Shown in pieces: positions 27,105-30,356 of a stretch of DNA of 41,126 bases. Each line of letters begins with the position of its first letter. The first letter of the stretch is position 1. The DNA is taken from assembly GCA_029101305.1 (NCBI GenBank), contig JAQXQS010000122.1, positions 1 to 41,126 on the forward strand, given 5' to 3'. Source of the stretch: Clostridia bacterium. GTDB taxonomy: Bacteria; Bacillota; Clostridia; Lachnospirales; Lachnospiraceae. Position numbers and translations under genes: made by a program. Below the pieces are notes generated by a model. That model ran no database searches. It was not told where the DNA came from and worked only from the letters and a program-made list of their open reading frames with translations.

Positions 27105-28934
27105 ATGAAAGTAACTGATTACATTGTTGAGTTTTTACAGAGAAAGGGAATCCATGATTTCTTTGGCTACCAGGGAACCATGATCGCCCATCTGGTTGAT
27201 TCCATAGAGAAAAATCCCCATACCAGAAGCCATTCCAGCTATCATGAGCAGGGAGCGGCTTTTGCAGCCTGCGGCTATGCCCAGGCCGGTGAACGGTGCG
27301 CCTGTGCCTATGCTACAAGCGGTCCGGGAGCTGCCAATCTGATCTCGGGAATCGCGGATGCATATTTTGATTCGCTGCCGGTGGTTTTTCTTACCGGCCA
27401 GCTGAATACCTACGAATATTCCGGAATTCCGGGATTGAGACAGCAGGGCTTCCAGGAGATTGATATTGTAGCCATGGCGAAGCCTGTGACCAAATATGCG
27501 GTGCAGATCCGGGAAGAGGAAGATATTGTAAAAGAGCTGAATAAAGCCTATCATATTGCGAATTCCGGCCGGAAGGGCCCGGTGCTTATCGACCTTCCTA
27601 TGAATATCCAGCGGGGAGATGTGAAGAACCCGGTATATGACATGAAACCAGAAGAGATGGGGCTTGTAAGTGAGAAACATCCGGTAGGTGTTGCAGAGGC
27701 CGCATCCCAGGCTGCGGGAGCAATTCGCGAGGCGCTTGCTCATTCCAGCCGTCCGGTGATCATGCTGGGTCATGGCGTCAGCGACAAAGCGGTACGTGAG
27801 AGCCTGTTTACTCTTGCCCGCCAGTGGAAGATTCCGATGATCACAAGCGTCCTGGAAATGTCTGCGCTTCCCTGGGATGATCCGCTGAACTTTGGTTGTA
27901 TCGGAGGCGCATATGGACACCGTTATGCCAATATGATCGCTAATGCAAAAAGTGACCTTCTAATCTGCCTTGGTATTTCCCTTTGCACCCGTCAGATCGG
28001 TACGAAAGTCCATGAATTTGCGAAAAATGCGAAAATTATCCGGGTAGATATTGATAACTATAATTTGCAGCGAAACATACACGAAAACGGTACGGATGAA
28101 CGGAATTTCTGTACAGACGCCGCCCTGGTAATCCGGAAACTTGCAGAGGATGCGCAGCTTATACAAAATGCGAAGAACGTACAGACGGAGCAGACGATAG
28201 AGACATCACAGGATGCTGTGCGGGAGTATGATTTTAGCAGCTGGCTGGATATATGTACGGATATACGGACCTCTTTACGGGAAGTGGACGATGCCACCCC
28301 AGAGCGCTATCCGAACCGTATGATCGCCGCTTTAAGTGATGCCCTTGCAGACACATCTGCAGTGGCAGTAGATGTAGGCCAGCATATGGTATGGAGTTAT
28401 CAGTCATTCCACAACCAGAAAGACCAGAAGCTTCTTTTCTCTGGTGGGCATGGCGCTATGGGATATGCACTTCCGGCCGCGATTGGAGCTTACTATGCGA
28501 CTGGCAAACCGGTTGCCTGTATTTGCGGGGACGGAGCTTTCCAGATGAATATCCAGGAGCTGGAATGGGTAAAAAGAGAGAATCTTCCTATTACAATGAT
28601 GGTAATGAACAATCATGCCCTTGGAATGATTCGCCATCTCCAGAGAGATTACTTCGAACAGGTTTATGCAGATACCTCAGAGGGAAGCGGATTTTCATCC
28701 TGTGATTTCGCAGAGGTTGCCAGGGCCTATGGAATCAGCAGTATCTGTATGGAAGCCGATCAGGTGAAGGAGAAAGCGCCGGGCTTTTTGCAGGAGACCA
28801 GTGTACCGAAGCTGCTTGAGATCCGTATGGAGCCGGGGACTTTCGCGTATCCCAAGACCTGTCTTGGTGAGCCGATCCATAACCAGCAGCCATATATTCC
28901 GAAGGATGTTTACGAAAGACTGATGAGTTTGTAG
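27105..28934 (+). CDS. ThDP-dependent acetolactate-synthase-like enzyme in the polymer operon
   Basis: This 609-residue protein has the full ThDP-enzyme layout: an N-terminal pyrimidine-binding domain with catalytic Glu48 in SSYHEQGAAFAACGYA and TSGPGAANLISGIADAYF, a central domain, and a diphosphate site GDGAFQMNIQELEWVKRENL followed ~24 residues later by NN. It differs clearly from the enzyme at 3357 (GYQGTMIAHLVDSI instead of GIPGEENLDMMNAL). It lies 15 bp after the LicD-like gene, so it belongs to a surface-polymer operon, not to branched-chain amino acid genes. Related enzymes build branched-chain sugars (YerE-type) or make aldehyde precursors for polymer substituents. An ordinary acetolactate synthase remains possible. 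The ribosome site before the ATG at 27105 is weak (AAAGG). Confidence 0.83.
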   Translation: MKVTDYIVEFLQRKGIHDFFGYQGTMIAHLVDSIEKNPHTRSHSSYHEQGAAFAACGYAQAGERCACAYATSGPGAANLISGIADAYFDSLPVVFLTGQLNTYEYSGIPGLRQQGFQEIDIVAMAKPVTKYAVQIREEEDIVKELNKAYHIANSGRKGPVLIDLPMNIQRGDVKNPVYDMKPEEMGLVSEKHPVGVAEAASQAAGAIREALAHSSRPVIMLGHGVSDKAVRESLFTLARQWKIPMITSVLEMSALPWDDPLNFGCIGGAYGHRYANMIANAKSDLLICLGISLCTRQIGTKVHEFAKNAKIIRVDIDNYNLQRNIHENGTDERNFCTDAALVIRKLAEDAQLIQNAKNVQTEQTIETSQDAVREYDFSSWLDICTDIRTSLREVDDATPERYPNRMIAALSDALADTSAVAVDVGQHMVWSYQSFHNQKDQKLLFSGGHGAMGYALPAAIGAYYATGKPVACICGDGAFQMNIQELEWVKRENLPITMMVMNNHALGMIRHLQRDYFEQVYADTSEGSGFSSCDFAEVARAYGISSICMEADQVKEKAPGFLQETSVPKLLEIRMEPGTFAYPKTCLGEPIHNQQPYIPKDVYERLMSL

Positions 28935-28984
28935 AGAATCCACGCGACGGAATTCAGAGGATTTTCAATAGAGTATATTGCAGG

Positions 28985-29029
28985 AACCAGGGGACTTTTC
29001 AATTACCATATTGGGGAAGTTTCCTGGTT
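28985..29029 (+). terminator. Probable terminator of the polymer operon
   Basis: AACCAGG (28985-28991) pairs with CCTGGTT (29023-29029), supported by inner ACTT/AAGT (28994-28997, 29017-29020). The tail TTCTGCTGTAGTTT is only moderately T-rich, so efficiency is uncertain. Confidence 0.5.
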
Positions 29030-29055
29030 TCTGCTGTAGTTTATCGAAGCCGGAC

Positions 29056-29232
29056 GCAGTTGGACAATTGTTATTACCGCGGGCCGGTGCAACGCTACGG
29101 TGAACTAGCTGCTAACTTCGACTAAGACGCTCGGGAGAGCCCTCGCGCCAAGTCTACGTAAGCATCGGATTTCACCTTCGCTAAGAGCGCACCTGAAATG
29201 GCCCGCTAGGCAATAACAGTTGTCCAACTGCT
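29056..29232 (-). ncRNA. Structured noncoding RNA candidate, copy 1
   Basis: This ~177-nt element is closed by a long terminal pairing: CAGTTGGACAATTGTTATT (29057 on) with AATAACAGTTGTCCAACTG (to 29231), continued inward by GCGGGCC/GGCCCGC. The interior aligns with the reverse complement of copy 2 (29371-29549) through conserved blocks such as CGACTAAGACGCTC, GGAGAGCC, TCGCGCC, AAGTCT and CTGAAATG. Stems differ in sequence between copies but stay paired: GGTGC/GCACC here against GGAGC/GCTCC in copy 2, and GGG/CCC against AGG/CCT. That is covariation, expected of a functional RNA fold. Strand is inferred from where G-U pairs fall and is not firm. The family is not recognised; large Firmicute RNAs such as the raiA motif should be tested. 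Confidence 0.6.
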
Positions 29233-29370
29233 GTGAACTGGCTGGAACTAATTGTTTTCAGTTGTGGGTAACTGGTAACTGAAAGTTCCCCCACTACAAT
29301 CAATAGCTGTGAGATACTTGTGTTCTAGCCGATAAACTCCTGTTTGGTTAGTTGCAGTTGTCAATAACCA

Positions 29371-29549
29371 GCGGTTTGGCAATGTATATTCACGTAGCCG
29401 TGCATTTCAGGAGCGGTTTTAGTGGAGGCGAGATCCATGACTTACGGAGACTTAGGCGCGAAGGCTCTCCTGAGCGTCTTAGTCGTAGTTAGTCATTAGC
29501 TTGCCGGAACGTTGCTCCGCACGGCGGTGAATATACATTGTCAGACCGC
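29371..29549 (+). ncRNA. Structured noncoding RNA candidate, copy 2 (inverted relative to copy 1)
   Basis: Arms GCGGTTTGGCAATGTATATT (29371 on) and AATATACATTGTCAGACCGC (to 29549) pair with two positions that are G-U only if the plus strand is transcribed. Inner stems include GCCGTGC/GCACGGC, GGAGC/GCTCC, ATGACT/AGTCAT and the hairpin core GCGCGAAGG-CTCT-CCTGAGCGT. The conserved blocks match copy 1 on the opposite strand. It ends 69 bp before the SDR gene, so a leader role is possible. The presence of an unlinked second copy and a promoter-like site after the element argue for a free RNA. The 138 bp between the two copies contains several AACTG repeats and small hairpins (for example GTGGG/CCCAC near 29262-29294) but no open frame. 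Confidence 0.6.
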
Positions 29550-29567
29550 GTATGGGAAACCAATAAT
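29538..29567 (+). promoter_or_regulatory. Possible promoter of the SDR gene
   Basis: TTGTCA (29538-29543), an 18-bp spacer and AATAAT (29562-29567) lie about 50 bp before the SDR start codon. The -35 falls in the closing arm of RNA copy 2, so the two functions would overlap. Confidence 0.4.
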
Positions 29568-29618
29568 TAGCACATTAAATAGCAAGATCACGAGAACAAT
29601 GTAAGAGAGGATGAAAAC

Positions 29619-30356
29619 ATGAGCAAAGTTACCATAATCACCGGTGGAACCTCCGGGATCGGAAGAGGGATTGCAGAAAAAATTCTGGCGAATTCTAGGC
29701 CTGGGGATATTTTATATGTAAGTTACGGACACAACAAAGAGCAGGCAGAAAAATTTCTCCAGGAGCAGACCACAGAAAATCAGCAGAAAATACGTCTGCT
29801 CCAGGCAGACATGTCCTCCTACGAAGAGATGATGAACTTTGTCACCAGGATCAAAGTGGAGACAGACCATGTAGACTGGCTGGTAAACAACGTGGGAATC
29901 AGCACCTACGCCAAATATGAAGATTATACATTCGAAGAATGGAGCAAAATCGTAAACACCAATCTGTCCGTCCCGGTATTTCTGGTAAAAGAACTCCGCC
30001 CGGTTATGAGCGAAGGTGGAAGCATTCTTTTCACAGGCTCCTATGCAGGACAGCAGGCATATTCCTCCTCCCTGGTCTATGGTGTAACCAAGTCAGCCAT
30101 CCATTTCCTTACTAAATCCCTGGTGAAAGAACTGGAGCCGAAGCAGATCCGGGTAAATGCCATTGCTCCTGGATTTATTGAAACCAGCTGGCATAAGAAC
30201 CGCACCCCGGAAAGCTATGAGCGGATCAACCGCAAGATCGCGCTGCACAGATTCGGCGAGATTTCCGAGGTGGCAGACATGGCTTATGAGATTCTGAAAA
30301 ATGGATATATGAATGGAAGTATCGTGGATATCCACGGAGGGTATGATTATTTTTAA
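29619..30356 (+). CDS. Short-chain dehydrogenase/reductase (FabG-like SDR)
   Basis: This 245-residue protein is a classical SDR: the nucleotide motif TGGTSGIG at residues 8-15, LVNNVGIST (NNAG variant), and the catalytic Ser141 with Tyr154 and Lys158 in YGVTK. The C-terminal VNAIAPGFIETSWHKNR and INGxxxDIHGG-like SIVDIHGGYDYF are typical. It reduces a carbonyl with NAD(P)H, but the substrate is not readable. It stands alone between the RNA elements and the cysteine desulfidase promoter. It could act with the upstream ThDP enzyme as a ketol-reducing partner, but the RNA region separates them and they may be unrelated. Ribosome site: AGAGAGGATG spacing suits ATG 29619. Confidence 0.9.
   Translation: MSKVTIITGGTSGIGRGIAEKILANSRPGDILYVSYGHNKEQAEKFLQEQTTENQQKIRLLQADMSSYEEMMNFVTRIKVETDHVDWLVNNVGISTYAKYEDYTFEEWSKIVNTNLSVPVFLVKELRPVMSEGGSILFTGSYAGQQAYSSSLVYGVTKSAIHFLTKSLVKELEPKQIRVNAIAPGFIETSWHKNRTPESYERINRKIALHRFGEISEVADMAYEILKNGYMNGSIVDIHGGYDYF

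Follow-up and report, generated by a model that had tools for sequence, protein, structure and literature searches.

Lachnospiraceae belong to the dominant bacteria of the gut. The best descriptions of dispersed structured repeats come from groups other than this family. In the Bacillus cereus group, the bcr1 elements are non-coding structured repeats that behave as mobile elements and have a conserved fold. In the REP/RAYT system, the repeat is defined by a GT[AG]G tetranucleotide at the foot of a hairpin and by a length of 21-65 nt, as given in the accessible part of the source (PMC6006769). Here, a pair of inverted hairpins is described from the genome of a Clostridia bacterium of the Lachnospiraceae (assembly GCA_029101305.1, contig JAQXQS010000122.1), and the window refers throughout to the whole stretch analysed, 41,126 nt in length. 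It is close to certain that the pair belongs to a dispersed structured repeat of Lachnospiraceae. Our main reading, to which a probability of about 0.6 is given, is that it is a member of a non-autonomous, intergenic, nested-palindrome repeat family, in which the arms would stay complementary by template switching, the core would spread between sites, and the loops would be read by a putative protein.

The hairpin pair in the window

The pair lies in an ORF-free gap (28935-29618), in agreement with the gene-free stretch of the original prediction; a gene for a thiamine-pyrophosphate enzyme (27105-28934) borders the gap on one side and one for a short-chain dehydrogenase (29619-30356) on the other. 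Two inverted copies of a structured element had been proposed there, with stems that differ in sequence and still pair; both copies were recovered, at 29056-29231 and 29371-29549, and the differing stems are real in each of them. The copies are mutual inverted repeats (74 nt at 78%, 59 nt at 75%), and the arms show 91% complementarity over 23 nt in each. Every copy forms a rod-like hairpin about 180 nt in length, in which short conserved feet and long arms accompany a conserved core of some 120 nt.

Copy 1 (29056-29231) has its core strand on the minus strand and copy 2 (29371-29549) on the plus strand, based on the arms, the strand folding and the model match. The arms of copy 1, found as an inverted-repeat match at 29056-29078 and 29209-29231 (given on the plus strand), enclose a conserved core at 29080-29198 on the minus strand (model R1, 128.0 bits). 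On the same strand, the foot motif GTCC (GGAC on the plus strand) follows the 3' arm immediately at 29052-29055, and the foot motif GCCAGTTCACA immediately precedes the 5' arm at 29232-29242. The features of copy 2 are all on the plus strand: its 5' arm (29371-29393) pairs with its 3' arm (29527-29549) around a core at 29405-29524 (model R1, 136.7 bits), with the foot motif CAATAACCA ahead of the 5' arm at 29362-29370 and GTAT, in place of the GTCC or GTAC of the family, past the 3' arm at 29550-29553. The feet were assigned from the sequence and from a consensus of 112 copies, kept out of 116 found by an apex pattern, in which the stem is preceded by ..ACA and followed by GTCC or GTAC, and the commonest letters on the 5' side are GCCAATAAACA. 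A spacer (29243-29361) separates the divergent hairpins, and similar spacers between the same hairpin types were found elsewhere in the genome at C219 (90%) and C136 (84%).

The covariance models of Rfam 15 gave no match at gathering level over the window, and at E<=5 only two chance-like miRNA matches, both outside the hairpins; the family search proposed together with the prediction thus returned no family for either copy. A long stem-loop at 28975-29035, 3' of the thiamine-pyrophosphate enzyme gene, is perhaps a terminator and had a chance-like miRNA match only.

Spread, placement and the search for a partner

The hairpin occurs at about 30 places in the window's own genome, as revealed by blast of both copies against the assembly (25 matches with one copy, and 57 at E<=1 with the other, stem self-matches included). 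Many of these copies are at contig ends, as is usual for repeats. The prediction had called a locus of two adjacent inverted copies unusual; the inverted pair stands, whereas the idea of a two-copy element does not.

Beyond copy 2, the window contains one half of an 18-bp outer inverted repeat, TTGCTATTTAATGTGCTG, at 29568-29585 on the minus strand, which was found by pattern search with 1 mismatch. The left half was looked for on the copy-1 side of the pair and was not found there, so that the window pair retains the right-hand end alone; at C136 and C219 the left half is kept next to a copy-1-type hairpin, and the second hairpin at C136 is a recombinant. In the own genome this end pattern has 35 matches at <=3 mismatches, against 0 for a reversed-pattern control, and it bounds, together with its complement, complete units of 265-266 bp at C50, C112, C157 and C198 as well as shortened units of 49 and 62 bp. 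These units raise the question of a MITE, in which the outer repeats would be transposon ends, the hairpin would be cargo and a transposase would act in trans. The ends account for part of the copies in one genome only, however, and the flanks differ at the copies that were read from other species. Inspection by eye of these six units, four complete and two shortened, revealed no target duplication, and no transposase-like gene was recognised by reading at the two stray end matches inspected, and a MITE origin is considered unlikely. Homology to a transposon terminal repeat had been named beforehand as an observation that would count against a selected RNA fold, and the situation comes close to it, since several copies lie within units with 18-bp inverted ends.

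Across the genus, blast matches were obtained in 9 of 41 genomes, the window's own being one of them. The check that had been proposed with the prediction, a new model run on Lachnospiraceae genomes, gave matches in 26 of 299 genomes (own included), that is, in 26 of 298 sampled genera of the family; in a class-wide sample 2 of 291 genomes matched, both of them Lachnospiraceae and one of them the window's own. These searches used strict filters and 12 scored candidates per genome, so the repeat may be missed in some genomes. The related, near-complete chromosome G142 carries at least 41 copies on the main contig, a figure based on the scoring of 150 out of 419 candidates, and the number of matches varies widely among species of one genus. 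A pattern scan of named genomes yielded at least 110 stretches, 80 of which were then searched with the model; these came mostly from Blautia, Hominisplanchenecus, Lachnotalea, Eubacterium and uncultured Lachnospiraceae or Clostridia, and among the eight unrelated genomes in this set Agromyces alone gave a marginal model match (E 0.0045). Blautia schinkii and Hominisplanchenecus murintestinalis, both cultured, are among the species with matching genomes. No match was found in phages (distant blastn with each copy), in plasmids (blast with copy 1 only) or in viral contigs (four exact patterns).

The repeat is intergenic, with 5 of 153 model matches (which include a few doubles) overlapping an open frame. 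The orientation of the adjacent genes is mixed (31, 23, 21 and 19 for the four arrangements in which both neighbours were seen). Of the 20 distinct pairs made up of neighbouring matches at most 1.5 kb apart, 19 are divergent, 1 is direct and none is convergent; L125, which is the window again, was left out of this count, and two of its 21 rows, L225 and L088, were taken as a single locus because their gap and scores are identical. Gene clusters found at four or more hairpin loci comprised three, of ABC-ATPase, Mur-ligase and transporter-permease genes, with no transposase among them. A cis-regulator of one fixed gene was rejected on account of the mixed orientation and of these common neighbours. 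At four loci (L087 1466-1583, L156 3384-3504, L172 5675-5804 and L201 6697-6814) the core strand is directed at a gene 93-169 nt downstream that belongs, at all four, to one cluster of related genes, two members of which are Mur ligases by Pfam (L156, L172); this arrangement may be a shared old site. Two further pairs enclose other DNA: at L214 (589-1362) the hairpins flank a methyltransferase gene, and at L149 (482-1450) about 1.1 kb with small open frames.

Very stable stems located between genes could also be terminators or stabilisers of mRNA 3' ends, kept for ending or protecting transcripts. A copy shared by G142 and G339 lies between two genes that we take to be infA and rpmJ, at a place where G340 and G338 have terminator-like hairpins by eye; in G341 a hairpin occurs in a longer infA-rpmJ interval, and the flanks at this site are too diverged for the target to be read. 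Against this role, 19 model matches lie between two genes that both start away from them, and a T-tract is not enriched after the 112 copies (T5 in 6, against A5 in 3). Such a role needs no conserved internal loops either, and it is regarded as very improbable for the family.

A possible partner for intergenic, multicopy palindromes with inverted pairs and a short conserved foot is a Y1 (HUH) transposase, which would mobilise a REP/REPIN-like element in trans by reading the foot as single-stranded DNA. The strand opposite to the core reads 5'-GGAC-hairpin, which may be compared with the foot tetranucleotide of REP as described in the accessible part of PMC6006769, but the foot differs from GT[AG]G. 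The Y1 family PF01797 had no match in 8 of the 26 distinct hairpin-bearing genomes (G340 and G369, which give identical rows, being counted once), three of these eight being 81-84% complete and one of unknown completeness. The hairpin was present at 1 of 60 Y1 loci, many of which came from hairpin-less genomes or from gene fragments. In G142 the GC skew points to an origin near 0 and a terminus at about 1.66-1.82 Mb, and the core strand is plus in 30 copies and minus in 11; a hand count of the two halves (14 plus and 8 minus; 16 plus and 3 minus, the right half being plus in 16 of 19) reveals no leading/lagging-strand rule in this genome (17 versus 24 of 41). The RAYT partner was rejected on the genomes without PF01797 and the single Y1 locus with a hairpin, and mobilisation of this kind is rated as highly unlikely; no other partner protein was identified among the genomes and loci examined. 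RAYT-like Y1 genes in G040 (L103, 277 aa) and G027 (L112, 266 aa) have short inverted repeats of their own nearby, GGGGACAGGTCC-like and GGGGACGT-like, which are unrelated to the hairpin.

Fold, arms and exchange of the core

To investigate the fold, 22 cores from 7 genomes within the genus were aligned by sequence only; they were taken from 28, with three own-genome near-duplicates and three divergent L075/L088 cores left out. The structure consists of the RNAalifold pairs and 7 pairs added by hand, and forms a rod of six helices, in which 93.7% of the cells are paired and changes on both sides occur in 22 of 34 pairs. The covariation score was 0.444, compared with 0.162 +/- 0.013 in 500 shuffles and with at most 0.105 for slid partners, so the wider alignment confirmed the covarying stems that had been predicted from two copies. 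The invariant blocks are located in the internal loops, including a GA/GA loop beneath the CUCU apex. In all 26 copies compared, the better-folding strand was the one with the CTCT apex, which is minus for copy 1 and plus for copy 2. At L134 in G337, terminator-like hairpins replace the core apex in both copies of a pair (519-663 and 1501-1644), with an A-tract ahead and a T-tract behind, and short tandem repeats are found between the two copies.

The covariation, the better folding of one strand and the conserved loops would fit a multi-copy structured ncRNA. Each copy would then be transcribed from the core strand, and the RNA, acting in cis or in trans, would bind a protein by way of its invariant internal loops, with their tandem G-A and CUCU apex. 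Base-pair composition of the core points in the same direction. In a model-fitted alignment (the top 50 of 86 and 42 of 67 matches, reduced to 71 by dropping those more than 90% identical), 72 G-U pairs were counted versus 22 A-C, or 37 versus 17 when the commonest pair was omitted; in the sequence-only alignment the numbers were 29 versus 10, and 19 versus 10 after the same omission, so the excess leans on one pair. The excess of G-U over A-C on one strand indicates that the core is likely under selection on a single strand, as RNA or as ssDNA. The signals of transcription are not clear: hexamers resembling TTGACA at one mismatch are somewhat commoner upstream (49 of 112, versus 34, 44 and 38 in controls), but TATAAT at one mismatch is not enriched upstream of the 112 copies (50, versus 60 in the control), and the T-tract count given above shows no enrichment. 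The mixed gene orientation, the widely differing number of matches within one genus and a site in G339 (L356) where 76 nt of the core are lost and the arms retained also argue against it, as does the composition of the arms, and an ncRNA is held to be a possible but doubtful explanation of the family.

Selection on an RNA stem is expected to favour G-U clearly. The arms were analysed as 105 distinct arms out of the 112 copies, with a length of 17-99 bp (32-33 bp in 28 of the 105); in a few of the 112 copies the helix picked is not the outer arm (at L011, for example, it is the 18-bp outer repeat). Their 3845 pairs comprise 3621 Watson-Crick, 85 G-T, 66 A-C and 73 other pairs, and the excess of G-T over A-C is not significant (p=0.14). 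The compensatory changes of the arms therefore agree better with DNA template switching than with selection on an RNA stem. The original prediction took compensatory change as evidence of selection on the RNA; for the core, the G-U pairs make selection on one strand likely, as RNA or as ssDNA, and for the arms such change is no proof of it by itself. By eye, the orthologous arms of L346 and L342 differ at two transversion pairs that are compensated and in two changes that are not. Template switching is reported to produce simultaneous compensatory changes (PMC8794818), and to homogenise the arms of a repeat while flipping the spacer (PMC8604942), in the accessible parts of these sources.

Comparison of hairpins within and between genomes revealed that near-identical cores are combined with unrelated or barely related self-complementary arms in some genomes. 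For the 22 hairpins of G142 and G339, the best 22 of 231 pairs were considered: paralogues have a core identity of 0.93-0.99 and an arm identity of 0.47-0.67, against a chance arm identity with a mean of 0.52 and a 95th percentile of 0.63, whereas three orthologous pairs have arms at 0.89-1.00. The arms of five paralogous pairs are at 0.67, slightly above the 95th percentile, so some relation of the arms is possible there. For G341, with 12 hairpins and a chance arm identity of 0.58 on average (95th percentile 0.71), most of the 22 best pairs are at chance, one is clearly related in its arms (0.89) and three are at 0.71-0.75. In G014 (18 hairpins) the arms are mostly inherited together with the core (0.52-0.95), and the uncoupling of arms and cores is thus not universal.

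Exchange of the core was detected at several sites. At the orthologous site L267 (G142) and L355 (G339), the arms are nearly equal and the apex is of a different type. In the own genome, C222 and C9 are copy-2-like on the outside and copy-1-like at the apex over 18 consecutive diagnostic sites, and C50 combines a copy-2-like outside with an apex that is copy-1-like at 16 of 17 diagnostic sites; C112 is of plain copy-2 type without a copy-1-like apex. Such swapped cores are the expected trace of gene conversion and of core transfer alike. In the strain comparisons no true pre-insertion site was found; an apparent empty site (L349 versus L341) is probably a deletion in G339 between CCC repeats, with part of an arm left, so that transposition itself was not observed. 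The proposal that the arms derive from the target, by inverted duplication of the flank on insertion, is unsupported, given this probable deletion and the orthologous sites that keep their arms as the core changes. C89 and C222 (L013 1829-1908, L018 1796-1893) share a flank and an arm and have cores in opposite directions; this is what a template-switch inversion would give, and it may be an assembly error because both contigs end within the hairpin.

Upkeep of the arms at the DNA level, together with exchange of the cores, is likely. Under our main reading, the complementarity of the arms would be maintained by DNA template switching at replication, acting on long inverted repeats, and the core would spread from site to site by gene conversion or by a putative core-directed transfer. 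The invariant loops, on one strand only, would be bound by a putative host or element protein, either as ssDNA or as RNA within read-through transcripts, and the core is probably recognised by a protein in trans. A stronger version treats the core as a structured, transferable cassette of 75-120 nt, copied between resident hairpins whose arms stay in place, with the paired feet and arm bases as a landing platform and a putative dedicated protein or RNA-templated step reading the loops. The swapped cores would fit such a cassette, which we judge improbable; if true, it would be a mobile element that moves among pre-existing palindromes and not into fresh target DNA.

A near-invariant core with site-specific arms, as found in some genomes, is a natural experiment on DNA template switching versus RNA selection, which bears on claims that covariation is proof of an RNA. 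A protein that reads the core, if found, would represent a new hairpin-recognition system.

Comparison with described repeats

The repeat is comparable with elements of the REP, bcr1 and MITE kinds; among the matches listed from the open-licence PMC text searched, it was not recognised in any title or abstract, and its combination of features was not found described. Its likeness to REP/REPIN (BIME) sequences lies in the intergenic position, the multiple palindromic copies, the inverted pairs and the short conserved foot beside the stem. Nevertheless, it is not a member of the REP family: it is about 180 nt long with an invariant looped core, compared with 21-65 nt in REP, the strand opposite to its core has GGAC/GTAC and TGT.. 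at the feet, where REP has GT[AG]G, its arms vary by site in some genomes, and no Y1 partner was found for it among the 26 genomes and 60 Y1 loci. With MITEs it shares the inverted-repeat-ended units of about 265 bp that enclose some own-genome copies, but the copies read in other genomes are without these ends, and neither target duplication nor a parent transposon was found.

With the structured RNAs of Rfam the repeat has in common the covarying helices, the conserved loops and a preference for the core strand; it differs in having no Rfam match and no clear promoter signal, and in arms that evolve as DNA palindromes. The bcr1 elements, compared here by description only, are similar in length, are non-coding and also behave as mobile elements, as far as the accessible part of PMC2267715 and general knowledge of these elements go. 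They are confined to one species group, whereas the repeat described here occurs in 26 of 298 sampled genera of a family and shows exchange of its core between unrelated arms.
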